A stretch of DNA of 64,000 bases from Fidelibacterota bacterium (GTDB lineage: Bacteria; Pseudomonadota; Alphaproteobacteria; Rhodospirillales; Rhodospirillaceae): contig CANJPG010000008.1 of assembly GCA_947476065.1 (NCBI GenBank), positions 1-64,000 of the forward strand, in the 5' to 3' direction. The number at the start of each line of letters is the position of its first letter. Positions within the stretch are counted from its first letter, which is position 1. Made by a program: the position numbers and the translations under genes. Below, one piece after another: positions 801 to 59,575 of the stretch. The notes beneath the pieces were generated by a model. That model was not told where the DNA came from, did not search any database, and was given only the letters and a program-made list of their open reading frames with translations.

Positions 801-1901
801 ATGCCGCGTCGCAGCGCAATAAGCACGCGCCGCAGCGCATTAAACTTCGGTAAGCCAATAACCATCGCCGCTCTGGCCGCTGTTCTCAGCGCCTGTTCGG
901 CCGTGGGTGGCATGGGCCTGTCTGGCGCCAATGCCGCCGAGCCCAAGCCCGTGCAAATGGCCGCCGAGGTTCAGAGCGGGCCGGTTGCACCGACCACCAG
1001 CAAATTTGGCCCGACCGCCGTCGGCCAAAAAGCCGCCCAGCTGCGTTCGGACTTCGAAAAGCTCAAGACCAATACCCAGACCCGCGCGGCCCAGCTGGAA
1101 ACGATCCGCACCCAGACTGTGGCCAATGTGAATTCCTACCACACCCGCGTCGGCGCGATCCGCTCGCGCCTGCAGATGGGCTCGACCCCGGGCAACCCGG
1201 AACTCCTGGCCGAGTGGAGCCAGGCCCAGACTCAGCTGACCCAGATCGACGCCGATATCGCCACCTTGAACACGCTGTCGGCCCAGGTTTCGGGCGACGC
1301 CGGCACCTCGGCCTTCATTCTTGAGAACATCCGCGCCGCCTACAACCTGTCGGGCGCGCTGGAAGAAGATCATCGCCAGCTCCGCATCCTCGAAGACGAA
1401 GTCAACCAGAACGCCATCGTCATCGACCGCGCGCTGCTCAGCCTCAACAACGAGATCAACCGCCAGGCCGTCTATGTCACCAACGAGCGCACCTCGCTGG
1501 TGCAGTTGGCCTCGGACATCAACACCGGACAGTCCTATGCCGCCGGCTCGTCTTCCGCGCGCCGTGTCGCCGCGGCCGCACCCCGCGCCGTCGCGTCGGT
1601 GACACCGGCGTCCTTCGCCGATAAGCGCCCGCTGGTCGTCATCCGCTTCGATAAACCGGATGTTGTTTATGAGCCCGCGCTTTACCAGGCGCTGAGCCGC
1701 GCCCTCGAACGCCGCCCCGATGCGACCTTTGATCTGGTCGCGGTGTCGCCCAACGAAGCCGGCCAGGCAGCCGCGCGTCGTGACGCCGATGCCGTGTTCA
1801 AGTCCATGACCAGCATGGGTCTGCCGGCGGAACGCGTCGCCATGGCGGCGATGGCTGCCCCAGCCGTAACGACACCGGAAGTGCACATCTACGTGCACTA
1901 A
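801..1901 (+). CDS. Predicted lipoprotein with long coiled coil and OmpA-like C-terminal fold
   Basis: The start at 801 gives a basic N-terminus, a hydrophobic stretch and a lipobox LSAC with Cys32, so the product is probably a lipoprotein of 366 residues. An in-frame start at 732 would put 23 unsuitable residues before the signal. Residues about 70-250 are Gln/Leu/Glu-rich and helical, consistent with a long periplasmic coiled coil. The last ~90 residues (from RPLVVIRFDKPD) alternate beta strands and helices and end in EVHIYVH. This resembles OmpA/MotB-type peptidoglycan-binding domains, but the usual Asp/Arg signature for diaminopimelate binding is not obvious. The gene is transcribed alone and converges on panC. 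A role linking membrane and cell wall is inference; the substrate is unknown. Confidence 0.7.
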   Translation: MPRRSAISTRRSALNFGKPITIAALAAVLSACSAVGGMGLSGANAAEPKPVQMAAEVQSGPVAPTTSKFGPTAVGQKAAQLRSDFEKLKTNTQTRAAQLETIRTQTVANVNSYHTRVGAIRSRLQMGSTPGNPELLAEWSQAQTQLTQIDADIATLNTLSAQVSGDAGTSAFILENIRAAYNLSGALEEDHRQLRILEDEVNQNAIVIDRALLSLNNEINRQAVYVTNERTSLVQLASDINTGQSYAAGSSSARRVAAAAPRAVASVTPASFADKRPLVVIRFDKPDVVYEPALYQALSRALERRPDATFDLVAVSPNEAGQAAARRDADAVFKSMTSMGLPAERVAMAAMAAPAVTTPEVHIYVH

Positions 1902-1932
1902 GCCGGCGCGCTTTCGGATCAGGCGGCTTTTT

Positions 1933-2790
1933 CTAAATAGTGACGTTATCAATCAGGCGTGCACGGCCCATGTGCGCGGCGGCCAGCACGCGTCCGGGCT
2001 CGCCGGCTTTGAGAGGCTGCAGGGTTTCCGCGTGGCGCGCTTCAACGTAATCGATGGTGCCGAAGCCGGCTTGGCCGATCGCATCGCGCGCGACGGCGAG
2101 GGCCGCCGCAATATCCCCGCCTTTTGCAATCTGGGCTGCGGCGGCGGTGATCGCTTTATATAGTGCTGGCGCCCGGGCGCGTTCGTCGGCGCTGAGATAG
2201 GCGTTGCGCGACGACATCGCCAGGCCATCGGCTTCGCGCACGGTCGGCACACCGATGATGTCCACCGGGATATTCAAATCCGCCACCAGCCGGCGGATGA
2301 TCATCAGCTGCTGATAGTCCTTCTCGCCGAACAGCGCGATATCGGGCAGCACCTGCAACAAGAGCTTAGTCACCACCGTCGCAACACCATCGAAGTGACC
2401 CGGACGATGGGCGCCGTCGAGAACATCGCTGAGGCCGGTGATGCCTACATTGGTCGCAAATCCCGGCGGATATATCGCCGGCACGTCGGGCGCGAACAGC
2501 ACGTGCACGCCGGCAGCCACCAGCATTTCAAAGTCTTCGGTTTCGCGCCGCGGATAAGCCGCGAAGTCCTCGCGCGGTCCGAACTGCTTGGGGTTGACGA
2601 AGATCGTCGCAACCACGCGATCGGCCATTTTCTGCGCGCGGTCCATGAGAGTCAGATGACCCTTGTGCAGCGCGCCCATGGTGGGCACCAGCGCAACCGA
2701 CAGGCCTTCGCGCCGCCAAGCCTGGATGCGTCGGCGAAGACTATCGACGTCGCGCACGGCGACCATTGCTCCTGCGTATGCACTTGCCAT
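1933..2790 (-). CDS. panC: Pantothenate synthetase (pantoate--beta-alanine ligase)
   Basis: Joins pantoate and beta-alanine using ATP via a pantoyl-adenylate, the last step of vitamin B5 synthesis, in the cytoplasm. The sequence has the nucleotidyltransferase signature PTMGALHKGHL near the N-terminus, the FVNPKQFGP segment, GEKDYQQ in the middle and the KMSKS-like loop AMSSRNAYLS. The length of 285 residues is normal for the family. The start at 2790 lies 8 bases after the panB stop codon; a second ATG at 2766 has AGGAG close by and matches the usual N-terminus equally well, so the exact start is uncertain. It forms an operon with panB, which makes its pantoate precursor. Confidence 0.96.
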   Translation of the reverse strand: MASAYAGAMVAVRDVDSLRRRIQAWRREGLSVALVPTMGALHKGHLTLMDRAQKMADRVVATIFVNPKQFGPREDFAAYPRRETEDFEMLVAAGVHVLFAPDVPAIYPPGFATNVGITGLSDVLDGAHRPGHFDGVATVVTKLLLQVLPDIALFGEKDYQQLMIIRRLVADLNIPVDIIGVPTVREADGLAMSSRNAYLSADERARAPALYKAITAAAAQIAKGGDIAAALAVARDAIGQAGFGTIDYVEARHAETLQPLKAGEPGRVLAAAHMGRARLIDNVTI

Positions 2791-2797
2791 GGCGCGG

Positions 2798-3652
2798 CTA
2801 TTTTTTCGGTTTTGCGGGTTTGTTCTTTTTGTCGGCGACGAAGCAATGCTCCATCGTCGGGAAACGGCCGGCACGCACATCTGCGGCATAGGCCGCGACG
2901 GCATTGCTCACATCGCGGCCGACTTCGGCGTAACGTTTGACGAACTTCGGCTTGAACTGATCGAAGACACCGGTGACGTCATCAACGACGAGAACCTGGC
3001 CATCGCATGCCGGCGACGCGCCGATGCCGATGGTCGGCACCGACACGGCTTTGGTGATCGCGCGGGCCAAAGGCTCCAGCGTTTTTTCGATGACCAGCGC
3101 AAAGGCCCCGGCCGCGACAACGGCCTTGGCGTCGGCGGTGATTTTCTGGGCTTCGGCAGCAGTGCGCCCTTGCGCGCGGTAGCCGCCGAACCTGTTCACC
3201 GACTGCGGCGTCAGGCCGACATGGCCGACGACGGGAATCCCACGGGCGACGAGAAAGGTAATGGTCTCGGCCATTTCCACGCCGCCTTCGAGCTTCACCG
3301 CGGCGCAGCCGGTTTCGGCCATCACGCGCGCCGCCCCGCGGTAGGCGTCGGCGGGCGAGGCCTGGTACGAGGCAAAGGGCATGTCGACGATGACACAAGC
3401 TCGCGACGATGCCCGCACCACGGCTCGGCCATGGGCGATCATCATGTCGAGGGTTACCGTCAGCGTTGAGTCCATGCCGTAGACGGTCATACCCAAGGAG
3501 TCGCCCACCAGAATTGCGTCCACATGCGCATCCATGGCGCGGGCCGTCGGCGCCGAATAGGCCGTCAGCCACACCATCGGCTCGCCACCTTTGCGGGCCG
3601 CTAGATCACGCGTAGTCAGCCTCGAAACTTTGGCCTTTGGTTCTGTGCTCAT
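2798..3652 (-). CDS. panB: 3-methyl-2-oxobutanoate hydroxymethyltransferase (ketopantoate hydroxymethyltransferase)
   Basis: Transfers a hydroxymethyl group from 5,10-methylene-tetrahydrofolate to 2-oxoisovalerate, giving ketopantoate for pantothenate synthesis. A TIM-barrel enzyme of 284 residues. Visible signatures are [13 protein letters not shown], the metal-binding [21 protein letters not shown] and the late [16 protein letters not shown] segment. The tail after the barrel ends in a lysine-rich [10 protein letters not shown] stretch. It is upstream of panC in the same operon. A gap of about 115 bases separates it from the small membrane peptide and kinase upstream, so it may have its own promoter. 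Confidence 0.96.
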
Positions 3653-3690
3653 GGGATAAGGTTTAGCTTAGATTTGCATAGGCCGGAAGG

Positions 3691-3774
3691 CTAGTCGCGG
3701 GCGCGGTAATACCACATCACGGCGCCGATAGCCGCGACCAGCACGATCATGCCGATAATTTCAGACAGGCCCAC
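3691..3774 (-). CDS. 27-residue single-span membrane peptide downstream of a sensor kinase
   Basis: A short open frame starts with GTG at 3774, 33 bases after the kinase stop codon, and ends with TAG at 3691-3693. GGCGGA lies about 7 bases upstream and could serve as a ribosome binding site. The predicted peptide begins MGLSEIIGMIVLVAAIG and continues AVMWYYRARD. That is one hydrophobic helix of about 18 residues followed by an aromatic belt and a positively charged end, the typical layout of a small inner-membrane protein with its C-terminus in the cytoplasm. I do not recognise a named family. The position suggests co-transcription with the kinase. It could be a chance frame, but the composition and ribosome site argue for a gene. 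Confidence 0.5.
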   Translation of the reverse strand: MGLSEIIGMIVLVAAIGAVMWYYRARD

Positions 3775-3807
3775 GTGATTTTCCGCCGCTCTATATATGG
3801 CGCAGTG

Positions 3808-5262
3808 TCATAGCGGAAGGCGCACGACAAAGCACGTGCCCTCTGGCGATGTCGACAGCAGCGTGATGTCGCCGCCTTGCACACGCAAAAGCTCGCGCGC
3901 GATCGGCAGGCCCAGCCCGAATCCGCCCGCCCGCGTCGAGCCGGCAAAGGGCACGAAAAGATTGTCGCGGGCCTTCTGCAGAAGACCTGTGCCCGTGTCG
4001 GTCACATGGATTGTTTGGTAGCCGCCTTCTTCCATGGCCGTCAGCGTAATGCAGGCGGCCCCGGCTTCGTCGGCGTTGCGCAGAAGGTTTTCAAAGGCCC
4101 GGTGCAGGAGGTCGAGATCGCCCGCGAACACCGTATCGGCGCGGGCGTCTATTGTGATGACACTGTTTTTCAGGATCGGTTGGATAGACTGTTTGAGGTC
4201 GGCCAGCAATACCGCCACCTGCAGCGGTTGTTTGTGAACCTGCGGCAGGCCTTCCTTGGCGAAGCGCAATGTCGAGGCCGACAGCTGCACGGCGCGGTCG
4301 AGAGCGCGCACCATGCCGGCGGTCAGGCGTTTGACTTCCGGGTCGGGCATGGCCTCGAGGCGCTCGGACTCCAGCATCGCCGTCGCCAGGAGATTCTTGA
4401 GGTCGTGGGAAATCTTGGTCACCGCCGTGCCCACGCCGGCCAGGCGTTCTTTTTGCAAGAGCGCGGTGCGCAGTTCCTGCTGCATGGCCGCAAGCGTGCG
4501 CTCGGCGACGCCGACTTCGTCACGGCGCGCCGAAGGATGGATGACGCTGCGCGGGTCTTCCGGCGCTTTCTGGAAACCCGTCATGCTGGCGGTGATGCGG
4601 CGCAGAGGCAGCACCGCCAGCCATTGCAGCGTGGCGTAGACCAGGACCGCCGAGACGACCGAGATGATCACGCTGATGAGAAGAATACGGCCCGCATAGG
4701 CCCATAGCTCGCTACGCAAGGGGCGCTCGTCGAACACCGCGTCAACAAGCACCGCCGGATTGGACGGACTGAGGCCGGTGACCATGACGGCATAGGTGTC
4801 CCGGCGCAGCATGGTCTTGAAGGCATCGACCACCAGATCCCAGAACATGTCGCGGCGCAGGTCGTAGGCATAAGGAATACGCGACGGAATTGCGGGGCCG
4901 AAGGTGCGCGTGGGCAAACCAGGGCGCTGCACCGACATGCCGAGGATACGGCCTTGGGACAGCAAATTATCGCGCAGCAACGGATCGATCTGGCCGGTCT
5001 TGACGGCGGCGACGTCGAGGGCCGTCAGCACCAGATGCGCCGTGGCCAGTTTGTCGTTGAGGTAGTTGACGCGGTAGTGGGCCACGCTCGGCATAAAGAA
5101 GACGATTTCGGCCATCATCACGAAGGCAATGGTGAACCACAGGAGCCGGGCCGACAGGCTGGACGTTTTCGAGTCGCGCTGCGGGGCGGCCACGACACTG
5201 TCCGCACGCGCCGCGTCCAGGCCGGCCTCGTCTAACCTCAGATCCGTACGCGCATCGTCCAT
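3808..5262 (-). CDS. Orphan membrane sensor histidine kinase
   Basis: A two-component sensor kinase of 484 residues. Transmembrane helices at about 40-60 and 190-211 flank a periplasmic sensing region of ~125 residues of no family I recognise. A HAMP-like linker follows, ending near residue 270. The H-box is KISHDLKNLL with His286. The ATPase domain has an N-box NLLRNADEAG (Asn396), DTGTGL at 422, an F-box FVPF and GGFGLGLPIA near 447. All catalytic elements are present. No response regulator gene lies nearby. A tiny membrane peptide gene follows 33 bases downstream. The kinase is divergent from rpmH across about 280 bases that hold the rpmH promoters. Confidence 0.93.
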   Translation of the reverse strand: MDDARTDLRLDEAGLDAARADSVVAAPQRDSKTSSLSARLLWFTIAFVMMAEIVFFMPSVAHYRVNYLNDKLATAHLVLTALDVAAVKTGQIDPLLRDNLLSQGRILGMSVQRPGLPTRTFGPAIPSRIPYAYDLRRDMFWDLVVDAFKTMLRRDTYAVMVTGLSPSNPAVLVDAVFDERPLRSELWAYAGRILLISVIISVVSAVLVYATLQWLAVLPLRRITASMTGFQKAPEDPRSVIHPSARRDEVGVAERTLAAMQQELRTALLQKERLAGVGTAVTKISHDLKNLLATAMLESERLEAMPDPEVKRLTAGMVRALDRAVQLSASTLRFAKEGLPQVHKQPLQVAVLLADLKQSIQPILKNSVITIDARADTVFAGDLDLLHRAFENLLRNADEAGAACITLTAMEEGGYQTIHVTDTGTGLLQKARDNLFVPFAGSTRAGGFGLGLPIARELLRVQGGDITLLSTSPEGTCFVVRLPL

Positions 5263-5372
5263 GGCGCCAGTTTACCTGGGCCAGGGGCGAATCGGTACGA
5301 CCGTCCGCCGGTTACGCCCTCCCAGGCCCCAAAATCGCTCGCTGGCACAGGGCCGAAACCGGACTTGGGCCG

Positions 5373-5400
5373 TTAACAGTTGATAAATAATTGATATAAT
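5373..5400 (+). promoter_or_regulatory. Distal sigma-70-type promoter for rpmH operon
   Basis: TTAACA at 5373-5378 and a perfect TATAAT at 5395-5400 are separated by 16 bases. They lie in a conspicuously AT-rich island (about 5373-5411) within GC-rich DNA. Direction and position suit rpmH, giving a leader of about 135 bases. The same AT-rich stretch could also contribute to the divergent kinase promoter. Confidence 0.65.
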
Positions 5401-5445
5401 TGAATATTATCGTGCGCTTCGGGCAAATTTCGCTGCGCCGGAGCA

Positions 5446-5474
5446 TTGACTTTGCCCCCCCTCGCCCGTATACA
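5446..5474 (+). promoter_or_regulatory. Proximal sigma-70-type promoter for rpmH operon
   Basis: TTGACT at 5446-5451 and TATACA at 5469-5474 are separated by exactly 17 bases, each five of six to consensus. Transcription would start near 5481 and leave a leader of about 60 bases containing the hairpin at 5487-5507. Confidence 0.75.
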
Positions 5475-5486
5475 CCGCCGGCACAT

Positions 5487-5517
5487 CGCGCCGGGTCTTC
5501 CGGTGCGGGTGTTTTTT
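5487..5517 (+). terminator. Attenuator-like hairpin with T-run in the rpmH leader
   Basis: CGCGCCGG at 5487-5494 pairs with CCGGTGCG at 5500-5507 (8 bp including one G-T pair) around the loop GTCTT. Four bases later comes a run of six T at 5512-5517. This looks like an intrinsic terminator placed between the promoters and the rpmH start at 5544, so it may partly terminate or be regulated. Whether an alternative antiterminator structure exists cannot be settled by eye. Confidence 0.5.
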
Positions 5518-5543
5518 CTCTTTGATTAACTGGAGTTGGTGAC

Positions 5544-5678
5544 GTGAAACGCACCTATCAGCCGAGCAAACTCGTGCGCAAGCGCCGTCACGGCTTCCGT
5601 TCCCGTATGGCAACCGTTGGCGGCCGCAAGGTCATTGCCAACCGTCGCGCCAAAGGCCGTAAGCGCTTGTCGGCCTAA
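5544..5678 (+). CDS. rpmH: 50S ribosomal protein L34
   Basis: A 44-residue, very basic protein starting [18 protein letters not shown] and ending KGRKRLSA, which matches the L34 family over its full length. It is a component of the large ribosomal subunit. The start is GTG at 5544, eight bases after GGAG. It is the first gene of the conserved rpmH-rnpA-yidD-yidC cluster and follows two sigma-70 promoters and a leader hairpin. Confidence 0.98.
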
Positions 5679-5748
5679 CGTCGATCTCCGCCGACTTCTC
5701 CGGCGGATGACGACGCTGAAGGGCCGATGCCTCATCGGATGGAACGCC

Positions 5749-6195
5749 ATGGCCTGGGACACGGAGCAAGCCTTACAAAAGCTGCCGGGTTCTGGAACGC
5801 CCCAAGAGCGTCAAAAAGCTGGCCGTCGCTGGACTACGCTCAGGACGCGGGCGGACTTTCTGCGCCTGGGTGCTAGCGGCGCGCGCCGGTCGACCCCAGG
5901 CTTCACCGTTCAAACCGCGCCCCGTAATGTTGAGGCCCACGTCTTGCGGGTGGGCTTCACCGCCAGCCGTAAGGTCGGCAACGCGGTCGCCCGCAACCGC
6001 GTGAAACGCCGCCTGCGGGCGTTGGTCGATAAAGTCATGCCGGAAGCCGCCGATCCGGCCCAGGACTATGTTTTCATCGGCCGACCCGAGACCCTGACGC
6101 GCGACTTTACCGTGCTCGAGCAGGAGCTGCGCCAGGCCCTCAAGAAGCTCGCCGAGAAGAAGCCCGCCCAAGCGAACCCGGTGAGCCGGACCTGA
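5749..6195 (+). CDS. rnpA: Ribonuclease P protein component
   Basis: The protein subunit of RNase P, which helps the catalytic RNA remove 5' leaders from precursor tRNAs. The family hallmark is [16 protein letters not shown], the basic RNR helix, preceded by [10 protein letters not shown]. Its N-terminal part [11 protein letters not shown] is also typical. With the start at 5749 the product is 148 residues, about 25 longer at the N-terminus than many homologues, so an internal non-ATG start is possible; 5707 is an alternative. It ends with TGA overlapping the yidD start by one base (TGATG), suggesting translational coupling. Confidence 0.93.
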
Positions 6196-25888: not shown

Positions 25889-27472
25889 ATGAACACCCCC
25901 TCCTCAATCCGGCGCCCCAAACCCCTGGTCCTTTGCATATTGGACGGCTGGGGATACCGCGCCGAAAAGACCGACAATGCCATCGCCCTGGCCCGAGTCC
26001 CGACCTGGGACCGCCTGCTGGCGACTTCGCCCCACGCTCTCCTCGAGACCAGCGGTTTGGACGTGGGCCTGCCCGACGGCCAGATGGGCAACTCCGAAGT
26101 CGGCCATATGAACATCGGCGGCGGGCGCGTCATGAGCCAGGACCTGCCGCGCATCGACATCGCGGTGGAGAATCACAGCATCGCCAAAATTCCGGCGCTG
26201 ACGGATTTCATGGCCGCCCTGAAGACGAGCGGCGGCGCGGCGCACATACTCGGATTGATTTCGCCTGGGGGTGTGCACTCTCATCAGGATCATGTCGTAG
26301 CCCTCGCGCGCATCCTCGATGGCGCGGGCGTGCCGGTGCGCATCCACGCCTTCCTCGACGGCCGCGATACGCCGCCGCAATCGGCTTATGGCTTCATGGA
26401 AAAATTCCTCGCTGATCTGGCAGCGCTGCAGAACGTGCAGGTCGCCACCGTCGGCGGGCGTTATTACGGCATGGACCGCGACAAGCGCTGGGAGCGCGTT
26501 GAGAAAACCTACGCCGCCATCACGGACGGTAAAGGCGCCGCAGCACCCGATGCACTGACCGCCATCAAGGCCTCCTACGACGCCAAACTTACCGACGAAT
26601 TCATGCTGCCCACCGTCATCGGCAGTTACGCCGGCATCAAGGACGGCGACGGCGTAATGATGGCCAACTTCCGCGCCGATCGCGCGCGAGAGATTCTCTC
26701 GGCACTCCTCGATCCCGCCTTCAACGGCTTCGTGCGCCCGCGCGCGATCAAATTTGCCGGCGCCATCGGCCTAACGGAATATTCGGCGGCGCATAATGCC
26801 TTCATGACCGTAATGTTCCCCGCCGAGCAGGCTTCAAACATGTTGGGCGAGATCATCAGCCGTGCAGGCCTCACGCAACTGCGCATCGCAGAGACCGAAA
26901 AATATGCGCACGTGACATTCTTCTTCAACGGCGGGCTGGAAAAAGGATTTCCCGGCGAAAGCCGCATCATGGTGCCGAGCCCCAAGGTCGCCACCTATGA
27001 CCTGCAGCCGGAAATGTCGGCCAAAGAAGTCACCGACAACATCGTCGAAAGCATTGAAAAGGCCCGTTTTGACGTGATTGTCGTCAACTATGCCAACGGC
27101 GACATGGTCGGACACACTGGCATTTTACCCGCCGCCATCAAGGCGGCCGAAACCATCGATGCCTGCCTCGCACGCCTGGAAGCGGCGGTGAAAAAGTCGG
27201 GTGGCGTCCTGTTGATCTCGGCCGACCACGGCAATCTCGAGATGATGCGCGATCCCAAGTCCCACGAGCCGCACACCCAGCATACCGTGGGCGAAGTGCC
27301 GGTCATTCTCGTTAATGCCAAGGATGTCGATCAACTGCGTGACGGCCGCCTTGCGGACCTCGCGCCGACGGTGCTCGAACTCTTGGGTCTGGCGCAGCCC
27401 AGCGAGATGACGGGCCAATCGCTTTTGCACCCGCGCGCACTTGAAACCATCGGTCGCCGTGCCACGGCCTGA
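25889..27472 (+). CDS. gpmI: 2,3-bisphosphoglycerate-independent phosphoglycerate mutase
   Basis: Interconverts 3- and 2-phosphoglycerate in glycolysis and gluconeogenesis using two Mn ions and a phosphoserine. The product has 527 residues. The metal-binding start is CILDGWGYR, the catalytic serine is in QMGNSEVGHMNIGGGR, and the later ligands are in NYANGDMVGHTG and ISADHGNLEMM with TQHTVGEVPVILV. It overlaps the start of the LytM-like gene, an arrangement known from gpmM-envC-yibQ in enterobacteria. Confidence 0.97.
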   Translation: MNTPSSIRRPKPLVLCILDGWGYRAEKTDNAIALARVPTWDRLLATSPHALLETSGLDVGLPDGQMGNSEVGHMNIGGGRVMSQDLPRIDIAVENHSIAKIPALTDFMAALKTSGGAAHILGLISPGGVHSHQDHVVALARILDGAGVPVRIHAFLDGRDTPPQSAYGFMEKFLADLAALQNVQVATVGGRYYGMDRDKRWERVEKTYAAITDGKGAAAPDALTAIKASYDAKLTDEFMLPTVIGSYAGIKDGDGVMMANFRADRAREILSALLDPAFNGFVRPRAIKFAGAIGLTEYSAAHNAFMTVMFPAEQASNMLGEIISRAGLTQLRIAETEKYAHVTFFFNGGLEKGFPGESRIMVPSPKVATYDLQPEMSAKEVTDNIVESIEKARFDVIVVNYANGDMVGHTGILPAAIKAAETIDACLARLEAAVKKSGGVLLISADHGNLEMMRDPKSHEPHTQHTVGEVPVILVNAKDVDQLRDGRLADLAPTVLELLGLAQPSEMTGQSLLHPRALETIGRRATA

Positions 27473-28853
27473 CCACGCACTCATTGTTTTCGCGGCGCTG
27501 ATGACAGCGCAGCTTGCGATTGCTCAAGACACACCCGATCCGACCAAACTGCAAGCGCTTGAAAAACAGCTCGAGAAGAGCCAAGCGGAACGCCAGCGTC
27601 TCGAATCCCAGGCCGTCACGTCTGCCAGAGATTTGGAAACCATCCGCTCCGACATGATTGCGACCGCCAAGGAGATCCAGGATCAGGAACACTCGTTGAC
27701 GGTCCTCGAAGCCCGCGTCGGCGACCTCGAAGCCGAGGCCACACGCATGACCACGACCTTGGGCCGGCGCGATGCACAGATGGTCGAAGCGCTGCTGGCC
27801 ATCGAGCGTCTGGCCTTGCGTCCATCCGATGCGCTGACCCTCAGCCCCTTGTCGCCGTCCGATGCGGTGCGCAGCGCAATCCTGCTTCGCGCCGCCATAC
27901 CGAGCATCAAGCAGTCGTCGGCGACGTTGCAGGGTGAGCTGAAGGAACTGTACCGCGTGCGCGCCGAAATCATCGACCGCAAAGAGCAGGCGGCGTCCGG
28001 CGCCGCAGCGCTGTTGGAAAAACACAAACGTCTTGATGCCTTGTCCCGCGAGAAGGCCGACAAGCATGAAGTCCTGCTCGCCCGCGGTGAGGACGTCACC
28101 CAGCGCGTAAGCAAAATGGCCCGGGAGGCCGACGACCTGCGCGCACTGTTTGCCAAGCTGGCCGAGGAAAAAGCCCGCCGCGACGAGGAGGAGCGTAAGG
28201 CCGCGGCCTTACGCTCCGAAGAGCGCCGGCAGCAGGTCGAACGCGAGAAAGAGCAGAAACTTGCCGCCGACCAGGCCAAAGCGGCCGCGGCCCAAAAGGC
28301 CGCCAAAGAGGCGACTCCGCCACCGGCCGCCGCGCCCGAAAAGCCGTCTGATACCAAGCTCGCGGCCTTGCCGCCGTCGTCGGTACCCACGCAATCGGTC
28401 AAAACCCAACCAGCCGGTGAAGAAGCTGTAACCCGTTCATTCGCAAAGGCACGCGGCACCATGCCGTTTCCTGTGGCCGGCACCCTGGCCAGCCGCTACG
28501 GCGCAGCAGCCCAAACAGCGGGAGATGCAGGTTTATTGGCCAAAGGCATCACGATCACCGCCCGTGCCGGGGCCCAGGTGGTGGCGCCCTTTGACGGCAT
28601 TGTCGCCTTTGCGGGGGTCTTCCGCGGCTATGGGCAACTCTTGATCATCGAACATAGCGAGGGATATCATACCCTTCTGGCTGGTATGGGACATATCGAC
28701 GCGACAGTTGGGCAACGTGTCCTCGCCGGCGAACCGGTCGGCGTAATGGAGAACGATGGCGCACCCGCGCTGTATGTCGAGTTACGCCGCGACGGCCAAC
28801 CCATTAATCCCCTTCCCTGGCTCGCTGACCGCGCAGGAAAGAACAGCGGATAA
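27459..28853 (+). CDS. EnvC-like murein hydrolase activator with degenerate LytM domain
   Basis: A 464-residue periplasmic protein. The GTG at 27459 gives a signal peptide ending QLAIAQ; an alternative TTG lies at 27441. Residues ~25-260 form a long coiled coil (LEKQLEKSQAERQRLESQ onward), with a basic, Ala/Lys-rich part and a Pro/Ala linker to ~330. The C-terminal LytM domain keeps its fold (ARAGAQVVAPFDGIVAFAGV, HSEGYHTLLAGM). The zinc ligands are lost: no HxxxD precedes it and YVELRRDGQPINP replaces the HxH segment. This matches EnvC, which activates amidases rather than cutting peptidoglycan. It overlaps gpmI and is followed by ctpA and a YibQ-type gene. Confidence 0.88.
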   Translation: MPRPDHALIVFAALMTAQLAIAQDTPDPTKLQALEKQLEKSQAERQRLESQAVTSARDLETIRSDMIATAKEIQDQEHSLTVLEARVGDLEAEATRMTTTLGRRDAQMVEALLAIERLALRPSDALTLSPLSPSDAVRSAILLRAAIPSIKQSSATLQGELKELYRVRAEIIDRKEQAASGAAALLEKHKRLDALSREKADKHEVLLARGEDVTQRVSKMAREADDLRALFAKLAEEKARRDEEERKAAALRSEERRQQVEREKEQKLAADQAKAAAAQKAAKEATPPPAAAPEKPSDTKLAALPPSSVPTQSVKTQPAGEEAVTRSFAKARGTMPFPVAGTLASRYGAAAQTAGDAGLLAKGITITARAGAQVVAPFDGIVAFAGVFRGYGQLLIIEHSEGYHTLLAGMGHIDATVGQRVLAGEPVGVMENDGAPALYVELRRDGQPINPLPWLADRAGKNSG

Positions 28854-44638: not shown

Positions 44639-44752
44639 GCGGACTCTTTGCTAGAAAACGCGTTGATCTTCCAGGCCGGGGACTTTAACAGAAACAGGTC
44701 CCCGACTTCCGGGGGAATATAGTGGATGTGTAGCGGCGTGCGGGGAGGACGG

Positions 44753-45415
44753 GTGAGGATCAGGCTGGCATTTATCGCTGTGTGCATGATGGTATACGCC
44801 GGCCTATTGCTGCCGGCCGTCGGCTTTGCGGCGGCGGCTCCCGAAGCGCCGCTGACCTATCCCGACTCCGATACCGAAAAGCCCTGCAGCACGCCGGGCG
44901 AAAGCCCGGAATGTGCCGCTAAGACCTTCTGGCTGTGCACTGAGAAATCCGTGGCCACTTGCAAGCTGGCCGGCCTTACGGTCCAGCCCGACGGCGCCCA
45001 GCATAAAGAAGACGGTACCGTAGCCAGTGAGGCCTGGGTGAAGCCATGGACCTGGACCTGGACGTCGCTGCTCAATGTGACCCATGCCGATTATACGGTC
45101 TGGCAGATCGAGGGCCTGCGCGAGGTCACGCAGCCCCGTTTACGCGGCGTGCCAGGAAGCCGGCGTCCCCTCACCGGCAGCCACGAACTGATGATCAAGA
45201 TGGTCAACGCCGGTGGCGACGAGGAAAAGGAAAGCGTGTTCCTGATCCAGAAGAAGGGTATCTGGAGCGCCACCGGATTCGCTAAATGGCGCAATGGCGA
45301 GATCATCAATGCCTGCGAGAAGCGCAAGCTCGGTTCCCTGGCGTGCCGCTACGGCATTCCAAACCTCGCACCGTGGGATCTGACGCCCCCGGCGCCGCCG
45401 GCCGCGCGGCCCTAA
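44753..45415 (+). CDS. Exported six-cysteine domain protein, family shared with the gene at 57426
   Basis: A 220-residue predicted periplasmic protein. GTG at 44753 follows GGGGAGG and gives a signal peptide (MRIRLAFIAV then a hydrophobic core ending near GFAAAA); an ATG at 44726 is an alternative. Mature cysteines Cys45, Cys54, Cys62 and Cys70 have spacing x8-x7-x7, in the frame PCSTPGESPECAAKTFWLC. A second pair lies near the C-terminus (INACEKRKLGSLACRYG). The same layout, with matching flanking residues (KT[FY], GL after the fourth Cys, CR at the last), is found in the protein at 57426-58532. No family recognised. Disulfides are likely. It is convergent with the glycosyltransferase gene. 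Confidence 0.72.
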   Translation: MRIRLAFIAVCMMVYAGLLLPAVGFAAAAPEAPLTYPDSDTEKPCSTPGESPECAAKTFWLCTEKSVATCKLAGLTVQPDGAQHKEDGTVASEAWVKPWTWTWTSLLNVTHADYTVWQIEGLREVTQPRLRGVPGSRRPLTGSHELMIKMVNAGGDEEKESVFLIQKKGIWSATGFAKWRNGEIINACEKRKLGSLACRYGIPNLAPWDLTPPAPPAARP

Positions 45416-57425: not shown

Positions 57426-58532
57426 ATGTCGTCGGCGAAGTGGCAAAAGACGGCCCTTATGCCCCTGTTTTGGGGCTTTTTCACCGTTGCGAGCCCAGCT
57501 AGAGCGCAAACTTCAGCCGCCCCGCCCCCGCAAACCGGCGCGCAAATGCCGGATTCCGCCTTATGGACCGGCGCCGAGGCCCCCGCAGAGCTGAACCAAG
57601 CCTGTACGGGGCCCGGTAGCACCCCCTTGTGTGCCTTAAAGACCTATCTCGCCTGCATTCTGTATGACGCACCGGCGCTCTGCGCCGCGGTCGGCCTCGA
57701 TGACGTGCCCGAGCGCTACCCCGGTCCCGACACCTTGGACAGCGAGGTTCTCGCGACACCCTGGTTCTTGCCCTTCGAGCGTCTGATGCCCGAAGGTTTT
57801 GCCCTGCACCTCTATAATGGCGGCCAGGTGCCGGGGGCCCGCTTTCAGACGGTGCGGCTCGCGGGCGAAACCGCGACCTTTGCCCCCATCACGGCTTACA
57901 AGGATGGCGCTTACGAGTTGGTCCTCGATATCCCTGAGCCCTACGTGAAGGGTCTGGTCTACCGGCTTTCAACCTTCTTTCGCCAAATCGGGGGCCAGTG
58001 GCGCCTGATTGCTTGGTCCAGCAGCCGCGCTAAGGCCTGCGACGCCGATTTCGGCACCGCCTCCTGGGCACCCTGCCGCTGGTTCATCAAGGACCTGCAG
58101 CACCGCAACGTCCTGGCCCCCGATATGAAGCAGATCTGGGCCTCGCCCAAGCAGCCGGGCCGCGACGACTACCCCCACCCCGGCCTGGAACTGATGATGG
58201 GCCTGCCCAATCAAGCCGTGGTCGCCCCCTTCGCCGGCACCATCGTCCGGCGCAGCCTGAAATATCCCGATGTGCCGCTGTACGACTGGGTGGTGATCGA
58301 AGGCGAGGGGCGCCAGTCCAACATGACGGTCAAGCTGGCCATGGTCGACCGCACCGGCCCCGGACCCGGCGCCCGTGTCGATGCCGCCGCGGCCCTTGGT
58401 CAACCGCAATGGGTCGAGAGCGAACATCCCGGCGCCGGACGGTTTGTACATATTGAATTGCTGCGCAACCGCATGCAGATCGATCCGAGGACGGTGATGC
58501 GCGAGCGCAAAGCGCAGGAGCTCCAGAAGTGA
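57426..58532 (+). CDS. Exported protein: six-cysteine domain fused to a variant LytM/M23 domain
   Basis: A 368-residue periplasmic protein with signal peptide MSSAKWQKTALMPLFWGFF to SPARA and AAGGG before the start. Residues ~58-222 carry Cys60, Cys69, Cys77, Cys86, Cys205 and Cys217, matching the protein at 44753. Residues ~248-358 resemble a LytM peptidase: HPGLELMMGLPNQAVVAPFA corresponds to the canonical HxGxD region with Glu255 in place of Asp, and RFVHIELLRNRMQIDP to the HLHFE region, keeping one His (342) and losing the other. Catalysis is doubtful, so it may bind peptidoglycan or activate another enzyme. The stop overlaps the next start (GTGA). Not a family I recognise as a whole. Confidence 0.75.
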   Translation: MSSAKWQKTALMPLFWGFFTVASPARAQTSAAPPPQTGAQMPDSALWTGAEAPAELNQACTGPGSTPLCALKTYLACILYDAPALCAAVGLDDVPERYPGPDTLDSEVLATPWFLPFERLMPEGFALHLYNGGQVPGARFQTVRLAGETATFAPITAYKDGAYELVLDIPEPYVKGLVYRLSTFFRQIGGQWRLIAWSSSRAKACDADFGTASWAPCRWFIKDLQHRNVLAPDMKQIWASPKQPGRDDYPHPGLELMMGLPNQAVVAPFAGTIVRRSLKYPDVPLYDWVVIEGEGRQSNMTVKLAMVDRTGPGPGARVDAAAALGQPQWVESEHPGAGRFVHIELLRNRMQIDPRTVMRERKAQELQK

Positions 58533-59575
58533 ATTTCACCAAACACGCCGTGGTGATCGGCGCCGCCTTGGGATTTGCAGCCTGCGCATCAATGCCGGTG
58601 GAACCTAGAGTCCCCACGACGCTGCCTGACCTGACGTCGTTCATGCTTATGCGCACGGACGGCGGCGCGCACCCGACGACGCGCGTTTCCGTGACAGAAG
58701 CCGCCGCGGTGCTCGCCGGCTACGACGTGATCTTCATCGGCGAGGCCCACGAACATCCCGGAAATCACCTGGCCGAGATGGCGCTGTTCCGCGCGATCTA
58801 TGACCGCGCGCCGCGCCTCAGCCTGTCGATGGAGCAGTTCGAACGCGACGTGCAGCCCGACGTGGATGATTACCTCGCCGGCAAGATCGGCGAGAACCCC
58901 TTCACGTCAAAGGCGCGCACCTGGGCCAACTACACCACCAGCTATCGCCCGCTGGTAGAGTTCGCCAAGGATCACAAATTGCCGGTCATCGCCGCCAATG
59001 CGCCCGAGAAAGTCATCCGCTGCGTCGGCCGCGAAGGCGAAGCGTTCTTCACGCGCATGAAGCCTGAAGAGCGCGGCTGGGCCGCCGCCCAGCTGAATAC
59101 GCAGGATGGTCCCTATAAGGATAAATTCATGGGCTTTGTCGGCGGCGACGAAGGCCACGGCGGCGATGGTTCAAAAGACAAGTCGGCGCCCCGCAAGCCC
59201 CCCAGCGAACAGCAGATCCGCAGCTTCGCCGCGCAGGTAACCCGCGACGACACCATGGCCGAGTCCATCGCGCTGCATCTGCAGAAAAACCCGGGCCGCA
59301 AAGTCGTGCAGATCAACGGCTCATTCCACAGCGATGGATTCTTAGGCACCGTCGAGCGGCTGAAGCTGCGCATGCCGAATTTGAAGATCGCCGTGGTCAA
59401 CCCGGACTTCGCTGACGATCCACTGCATCCCAAGGTCAGCGACAAGGAAGCCAAGGCCGGAACGTTCACGCTGCTCCTGCGCGAACTGCCGGACTTCTAC
59501 GCCAACGACGAGGAGATGGCGGCAGCCATCAAAAAACAGATCGCCGCGCGTGATCGCAATAAGTGCGAGCTCTGA
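58529..59575 (+). CDS. ChaN-like (DUF399) haem-binding type lipoprotein
   Basis: A 348-residue predicted lipoprotein. The signal MNFTKHAVVIGAALGFAAC ends with a lipobox. The mature protein matches ChaN: YDVIFIGEAHEHPGNHLAEM, LSMEQFERDVQPDVDDYL, VIAANAPEKVIRCVGREG, and QINGSFHSDGFLGTVERL. A Gly/Lys/Pro-rich loop (~200-232, with EGHGGDGSKDKSAPRKPPS) is inserted before the second half. ChaN of Campylobacter binds haem; an iron role here is inference. GTG at 58529 overlaps the stop of the LytM-variant gene, so the two are coupled. Confidence 0.88.
   Translation: MNFTKHAVVIGAALGFAACASMPVEPRVPTTLPDLTSFMLMRTDGGAHPTTRVSVTEAAAVLAGYDVIFIGEAHEHPGNHLAEMALFRAIYDRAPRLSLSMEQFERDVQPDVDDYLAGKIGENPFTSKARTWANYTTSYRPLVEFAKDHKLPVIAANAPEKVIRCVGREGEAFFTRMKPEERGWAAAQLNTQDGPYKDKFMGFVGGDEGHGGDGSKDKSAPRKPPSEQQIRSFAAQVTRDDTMAESIALHLQKNPGRKVVQINGSFHSDGFLGTVERLKLRMPNLKIAVVNPDFADDPLHPKVSDKEAKAGTFTLLLRELPDFYANDEEMAAAIKKQIAARDRNKCEL

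Follow-up and report, generated by a model that had tools for sequence, protein, structure and literature searches.

We analysed P0001, a gene in a 64,000-nucleotide stretch of bacterial DNA (the window), whose product joins a cysteine-rich domain to a degenerate M23 (LytM) domain of the LECT2 type. The reading that we tentatively prefer, and that may well prove wrong, is that P0001 is a domesticated immunity/toxin chimera, a non-catalytic periplasmic binder that would most likely act as a chromosomal guard against LECT2-type lysins and toxins. It draws on the fold and the lost catalytic residues of the M23 half, on the kinship of both halves with proteins encoded by neighbouring genes in other genera, and on the locus (see below).

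The open reading frame of P0001, as read within the window, encodes 368 amino acids. The features of the gene and its surroundings are listed here; profiles are named A2 (fusion C-domain), A3 (fusion N-domain), A4 (stand-alone cysteine domain), A5 (enzyme) and A6 (cysteine family).

57426..58532, + strand: fusion gene P0001, with leader, cysteine-rich domain and degenerate LECT2-type M23 domain (open reading frame; full-length relatives)
57426..57509, + strand: putative Sec signal peptide, residues 1-28, MSSAKWQKTALMPLFWGFFTVASPARAQ (read from the sequence)
57579..58121, + strand: cysteine-rich immunity-like domain, residues 52-232 (profile A3 against A6; cysteines in 12 of 12)
58131..58493, + strand: degenerate M23 (LytM) domain, residues 236-356 (Pfam on relatives, tree, model, structure matches)
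58176..58190, + strand: HPGLE, altered HxGxD site with H251, G253 and E255 (site table of 12 fusions)
58341..58343, + strand: M306, at the position of the catalytic His of ordinary M23 or the Tyr of LECT2-type domains (joint alignment)
58443..58451, + strand: FVH, residues 340-342, altered HxH site within FVHIE (joint alignment)
58529..59575, + strand: ChaN-like gene, overlapping P0001 by 4 bases (PF04187, E 2.1e-54)
44726..45415, + strand: stand-alone paralogue of the cysteine-rich domain, 229 aa, six cysteines in the order of P0001

The putative leader reached a hydropathy peak of 1.69 ahead of the first cysteine, which is consistent with export, and the cysteines (C60, C69, C77, C86, C205 and C217) may form disulphides in the periplasm. 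A search of NCBIfam with P0001 gave no match.

The fusion gene within its genus

Full-length relatives of P0001 were found in 11 of the 19 genomes of the genus, its own included, and were missing from the other eight. One genome (G001) carries two fusion genes in tandem, so that the 11 carriers yield 12 fusion proteins in total; the tandem copy among the 12 rows is L024. The initial annotation had pointed to six ordered cysteines, and these, from C60 to C217, proved invariant in all 12 relatives.

In all 11 carriers the fusion gene, or the tandem pair, is followed downstream by chaN; mdh lies upstream in nine, the contig ending at that point in the remaining two. In all eight non-carriers of the genus mdh and chaN are directly adjacent. 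A tree of the 19 ChaN proteins, unrooted, placed the fusion carriers all on one side of a branch with support 89/96; because one branch splits them off, a single change of the trait, either a gain or a loss, suffices. As judged from gene order and this tree, the fusion occupies one fixed site, the mdh-chaN interval, in one clade of the genus. The stand-alone cysteine-domain copy was matched more widely (18 of 19 genomes of the genus), and no open reading frame matching both profiles turned up outside the genus among the 28 loci examined, the fusion being seen in this genus alone.

Among the fusion relatives the median dN/dS was 0.155 for the C-domain and 0.189 for the N-domain, values from pairs close to saturation (median pS 0.62-0.66; 8 of 110 pairs saturated; L024 omitted). 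The ratios indicate that the fusion gene is kept under purifying selection. Conservation among the fusions was 78% in the C-domain against 66% in the cysteine-rich half.

Fold, active site and kinship of the M23 domain

Pfam M23 matched P0001 weakly when it was searched alone (E 0.28; 11.9 bits, with a cut-off of 28.7), and matched 11 of the 12 fusion members at E<=1, the best at 5.3e-11. A genome-wide Pfam M23 search took in 16 of the 19 genomes of the genus, that is, nine of the 12 fusion genes. Two of these passed the cut-off (L024 with 45.4 bits and the gene of G015 with 29.9 bits), those of G011 and G010 were listed below it, and the other five, P0001 included, were unlisted at E<=0.001. 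The C-domain was modelled with AlphaFold2 using 11 relatives from IMG/VR, which gave a mean pLDDT of 81.3 and a pTM of 0.76. Foldseek matched this model to M23 structures (LytM, EnpA, EnvC and lysostaphin), and with VIA-align the best score was Z 15.2 (9gy1, rmsd 2.2, 119 aligned). EnvC (8c0j) scored Z 14.2, tied with other M23 structures; LECT2 scored Z 12.7 and had the highest identity, 24%, among the 50 matches listed. When the C-domain profile was run against PDB sequences, human LECT2 came first at E 0.048, a match that is weak taken alone because alcohol dehydrogenases followed at 0.062. The LytM/M23 fold, which had been proposed by eye for the C-terminal part, is thus borne out by the predicted model and its structural matches, and we regard it as secure. 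Profile matches and fold together place the fusion family in Peptidase_M23 (PF01551).

The residues of the active site were compared in a joint alignment of 12 fusion, 14 LECT2-type, 11 viral and 12 ordinary M23 rows. Two ordinary rows without the HxGxD motif (L002 and L132) and five of the 16 viral loci (near-copies L179 and L181; long proteins L187, L191 and L192) were left out of this table and of the tree described below. The LECT2-type, viral and ordinary rows were excised by the HxGxD motif, so that conservation of H, G and D in them follows from the selection; the Tyr/His and HxH columns do not depend on it. According to the excerpted text of PMC9662197, zinc in M23 peptidases is bound via H(x)nD and the second His of HxH, and the first His of HxH is the proposed water activator.

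At the first zinc ligand, position 251, ten of the 12 fusions have His (Y in L014, P in L016). The second, position 255, is acidic throughout, with Glu in ten and Asp in two (L016 and L024). Position 306 holds L in seven, M in three, F in one and N in one, so the catalytic residue is gone from every fusion; its equivalent is His in 12/12 ordinary M23 rows and Tyr in 14/14 LECT2-type and 11/11 viral rows. The first His of HxH, position 340, is likewise lost in all 12 (F in ten, K in one, T in one), with HxH intact in 14/14 LECT2-type and 11/11 viral rows. The last zinc ligand, H342, is present in 12/12 fusions, and H334 is equally invariant.

The altered ligand sites HPGLE and VHIE therefore read as originally described (H251, G253, E255 and H342). 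The earlier statement that one His is missing was right as to the HxH His at position 340 and incomplete, as the second catalytic position, 306, is lost too. It had also been suggested that conservation of His251, Glu255 and His342 be surveyed; with H342 in 12/12, H251 in only 10/12, and Glu in ten and Asp in two at 255, the three residues are neither fixed nor free. The fusions lack the catalytic set of PF01551 (HxxxD, catalytic His, HxH), making them members of the fold and not of the active-site family, and P0001 also lacks the LECT2-type hallmarks (Tyr at the catalytic-His position, intact HxH, HxGxD). With both catalytic positions lost in 12/12, a normal endopeptidase is improbable, as had been anticipated, and P0001 is most likely a pseudo-peptidase. 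The tandem copy L024, on the deepest branch of the fusion group in a quick tree, retains the H-D-H zinc triad and lacks both catalytic residues, which suggests that catalysis was lost before the zinc ligands began to drift. The enzyme was apparently inactivated stepwise, catalytic residues first and zinc ligands afterwards.

Profile A2, run over 297 genomes of the order, matched 16 genomes, six in the genus and ten outside; typed by tree, nine of these ten have a LECT2-type domain and one an ordinary domain (L106). LECT2-type domains predominated in this way although M23 genes were present in 25 of 25 genomes searched. The quick tree covered 49 domains (fusion, LECT2-type, viral and ordinary M23 rows, LytM factors lying outside the sample) and united the 12 fusion and 14 LECT2-type rows in one 26-row set (SH-aLRT 99), with the 12 ordinary domains set apart (support 100). 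The exact sister of the fusion group is unsure, given the group's long stem (1.8) and the weak support at many forks. Comparison of profiles A2 and A5 gave 99.2%. By this grouping, the M23 domain of P0001 belongs with the LECT2-type domains of phages and toxins rather than with ordinary M23.

An EnvC-like amidase activator, the function offered in the initial annotation, found no positive support, the domain grouping with LECT2-type phage/toxin M23. Orthology with EnvC is also unsupported, as the window holds a separate LytM-factor-like gene. This gene, at 27441-28853 (+), encodes a degenerate M23 protein of 470 aa (PF01551, 80.7 bits) whose three zinc-ligand positions are occupied by A, T and Y; we take it to be a coiled-coil LytM factor of the EnvC type, and its flanking genes to be presumably those of a phosphoglycerate mutase and a C-terminal processing protease.

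The cysteine-rich family and its neighbouring hydrolases

No family was found for the cysteine-rich domain in Pfam or NCBIfam, a PDB sequence search with it returned unrelated weak matches only, and in the open-access literature we recognised no paper describing the family or its pairing with M23. The family thus appears to be undescribed in these sources. An NTF2-like fold was considered for the domain and is unsupported, the two-row model of the full protein having a pLDDT of 40.3. Four N-terminal cysteines and a conserved Trp occur in 21/21 family rows, in a cysteine order that matches 12/12 fusions, and comparison of the fusion N-domain with the stand-alone family (A3 with A6) gave 98.6%.

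The proposal that no described family has this domain pairing held in so far as Pfam and NCBIfam have none for the cysteine domain; it did not hold for the association itself, as the halves are linked genes in other genera. What is unusual in P0001 is therefore the fusion. Eight of the nine LECT2-type enzymes found by the C-domain profile alone (L098, L100-L105, L107) adjoin a cysteine-domain gene. The ninth (L099, in G040; locus L146, 5020-5790 (-)) has a convergent neighbour with a leader-like start that lies outside the cysteine family, is unmatched in Pfam and may represent a further type of antidote. Counted over the rows of the domain tree, 13 of the 14 LECT2-type domains have a cysteine-domain neighbour, L099 again being the exception.

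With wider profiles, the 297 genomes yielded 29 enzyme matches at E<=1e-12 and, outside the genus, 66 cysteine-domain matches. A cysteine-domain match lay at most 231 bases away for 20 of the 29 enzymes (20 of the 25 with E<1e-27 and none of the four weak ones). Five of the 14 A5 rows (L047, L049, L054, L062 and L063) came via the cysteine-domain search and at least four of the 21 A6 rows (L098, L101, L104 and L107) via the enzyme search, so that the figure of 20/29 is partly circular and that of 8/9 unbiased. Chance adjacency is ruled out by a rough estimate of about 0.05 linked pairs expected against 20 observed. In these 20 pairs the genes were convergent in 15 and co-directional with the enzyme first in five, and none was divergent. 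In 13 of 14 partners, a crude hydropathy scan showed a strongly hydrophobic stretch ahead of the first cysteines (the anchor was mis-set in the exception), and in none of 13 enzymes did it show one within the first 60 residues. This linkage suggests an immunity role for the cysteine family.

The link is not universal. For 44 of the 66 cysteine-domain matches outside the genus there was no M23 match within 1.5 kb. Outside the order, six genomes had an enzyme match at E<1e-16; two of them (G346 and G462) had an adjacent cysteine domain, and the other four gave no cysteine-domain match. The same search found eight cysteine-domain genomes besides G000, two of them with linkage to an enzyme. Some of these proteins (L196 in G416, L197 in G606 and L194 in G346) have two or three tandem cysteine domains, with an M23 match beside L194 alone. 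A three-gene variant of the pair was seen at L212 in G462 (920-1453 (-) and 1405-2373 (-)), in the order leaderless LECT2-type M23 enzyme, leader-bearing M23 with HxGxD and HxH, and tandem two-cysteine-domain protein.

At eight loci where the cysteine domain lacks an M23 neighbour, five (L050, L055, L056, L060 and L064) showed it convergent with a different lysin family. All four translated members of this second lysin family contain an EGG motif, and Pfam covers the family weakly (L055, L056, L064 and L050 are among its loci), PG_binding_3 being barely over the cut-off in two; one member matches a PHROG endolysin (E 1.6e-7), and the N-terminal module of the L055 lysin is common to an M23 enzyme (36% over 119 aa). 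The seven cysteine-domain rows of the M23-less kind grouped together in the cysteine-domain tree (support 93), a quick tree that carried warnings of long branches. From the pairing with the second lysin and this set, the cysteine family seems to follow peptidoglycan hydrolases and to be divided into sub-clades according to the enzyme.

To place these genes in context, 20 chosen neighbours at 12 loci were compared with PHROGs. Tail, head, terminase, lysis or integrase families were found near nine loci (L137, L139, L140, L142, L144, L146, L149, L152 and L156), of which L146 and L156 are enzyme loci without a cysteine gene; the neighbours tested at L151, L154 and L155 gave no phage family. Among other loci, L141, L143 and L150 had, by eye, housekeeping-type neighbours. 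At L156 (G145) the LECT2-type M23 gene, 3268-4965 (+), lies amid phage tail genes and has a convergent neighbour, 5012-5938 (-), of 308 aa with no Pfam match. The N-terminus of the enzyme is repeated in a nearby gene at three loci: at L145 the paralogue has 87% identity over 135 aa of the N-terminus and no Pfam match; at L155 it has 70% identity in an alignment spanning residues 1-333 and a colicin-type Cytotoxic C-terminus (PF09000, E 2.2e-10); at L152 it has 87% identity over 130 aa and is cut by the contig end. A shared N-terminus with differing C-termini is, on these alignments, the layout of polymorphic toxins.

In IMG/VR neither the DNA pattern of the cysteine motif nor profiles A2, A3 and A8 found a match, and one cysteine-domain protein used as query found none in the phage collection. 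LECT2-type M23 genes were present on 16 viral contigs, with no cysteine-domain match in the stretches examined, and one partner enzyme, searched against the phage collection, aligned with M23 genes in 89 records along no more than half its length. The pair was thus seen in prophage-like regions of bacterial genomes and not in catalogued viruses. A contig of a Flavobacteriales genome gave a weak match of 34 residues.

G285, a genome from the taxonomic family to which the genus belongs, has a co-directional pair in a prophage-like setting, flanked by phage portal and major head genes. Outside the genus the C-domain profile scored highest here (E 1.5e-14), as did A4 among the 28 loci (E 1.8e-17). 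Of 21 cysteine proteins, that of G285 alone shares with P0001 the spacing of the last two cysteines (12 residues), and in the cysteine-domain tree a split (99, though on a long branch) places it with the genus. Against this, A3 ranks L049 first (2.3e-12) and G285 at 2e-7, though the latter match spans the full length. By these resemblances a G285-like prophage pair is a possible source type of the fusion.

Possible functions and relation to known systems

Under the preferred reading, two partner proteins would have been fused into one periplasmic pseudo-peptidase, its export being deduced from the putative leader. The front half would derive from a family placed beside peptidoglycan hydrolases in the manner of a cognate inhibitor (immunity protein), the back half would be a catalytically dead copy of a LECT2-type M23 hydrolase, and the protein would act through binding and no cutting. 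As a guard, the inhibitor half would intercept LECT2-type M23 lysins or toxins that enter the periplasm, and the dead M23 half might be an internal plug, a decoy or a wall anchor. A broader version, in which the cysteine proteins are periplasmic inhibitors of LECT2-type M23 and EGG-motif lysins alike and P0001 a domesticated chimera serving as permanent chromosomal shield, is doubtful. Against the preferred reading, convergent gene order is uncommon for effector-immunity pairs. Both halves change slowly and the C-domain is the better conserved, as one would expect of a steady partner more than of a guard in an arms race. The 12 genus members searched gave no LECT2-type match at E<=1e-12, which likewise counts against a guard.

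In the main rival reading, P0001 would instead be an exapted cell-wall regulator. Like EnvC, NlpD and DipM, it would use the dead M23 groove to bind and either activate or restrain a wall enzyme of the host, the cysteine domain being no more than a fused scaffold or sensor. The stronger conservation of the M23 half, the stable chromosomal locus and the presence of one Amidase_3 gene in the genome agree with this, as does the statement, in the part of PMC9662197 cited here, that degenerate M23 folds act via protein contacts. We nevertheless consider it unlikely, given that the domain groups with phage/toxin M23 away from the ordinary set, that the fusion is missing from 8/19 genomes of the genus, and that another LytM-factor-like gene is available at 27441-28853.

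Rather than inhibiting phage hydrolases, the cysteine proteins might also assist them in folding or export, or set the timing of lysis, P0001 then being a helper fused to a relic. The co-directional G285 pair between portal and major head genes would suit a co-expressed helper as well; the convergent order of 15 of the 20 linked pairs, which means that the genes are separately transcribed, and the leader seen on the partner and not on the enzyme in the crude hydropathy scan make this improbable. Finally, a rearranged site (H251, E255, H342 and perhaps H334) that still bound zinc or kept weak activity would account for the invariance of H342 and H334, for the acidic residue at 255 in 12/12 and for the H-D-H triad in the tandem copy L024. 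The replacement of H251 by Y or P in two of 12 fusions and the loss of both catalytic positions in all of them leave this very improbable.

If P0001 is the chimera that we prefer, it combines known kinds, the M23 pseudo-enzyme and the effector-immunity pair. It resembles LECT2, a mammalian pseudo-enzyme, in its M23 fold and lost catalytic His (the latter as given in the portion of PMC9662197 consulted), and differs from it in the Glu for Asp at the second zinc ligand, the loss of the first HxH His, the fused cysteine domain and its bacterial origin. Like EnvC, NlpD and DipM it has a degenerate M23 fold, predicted to be periplasmic and probably acting by contact; unlike them it retains His342, an acidic second ligand and an N-terminal cysteine domain, and it grouped with LECT2-type domains in a tree whose sample was without LytM factors. 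Its relatives resemble effector-immunity pairs and polymorphic toxins in having a leaderless hydrolase beside a small leader-bearing protein, and a shared N-terminus with a different C-terminus nearby. P0001 itself departs from that layout as a single protein with the cysteine domain first, a dead enzyme domain and a housekeeping locus. In Acinetobacter baumannii, the T6SS effectors include M23 domains, and of the nine groups of immunity proteins cognate to peptidoglycan hydrolases seven had predicted signal peptides, according to the extracts of PMC6833914. Phages do encode periplasmic hydrolase inhibitors, as illustrated by T4 Spackle, a periplasmic phage protein that inhibits a peptidoglycan hydrolase and targets a lysozyme domain (PMC7677548, in the part used here). 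Spackle is an analogue for the role proposed for the cysteine family; the comparison is by analogy alone and claims no homology.

The leader-bearing cysteine-rich family and the LECT2-type M23 enzymes of prophages and toxin islands are two unannotated groups that can be read jointly. If the former inhibits the latter, it would be a new antidote family against cell-wall enzymes, and the fusion would be a weapon and its antidote made into a single host protein following inactivation of the enzyme. Stepwise inactivation of this kind might then be one way in which other pseudo-enzymes, LECT2 for example, come about.
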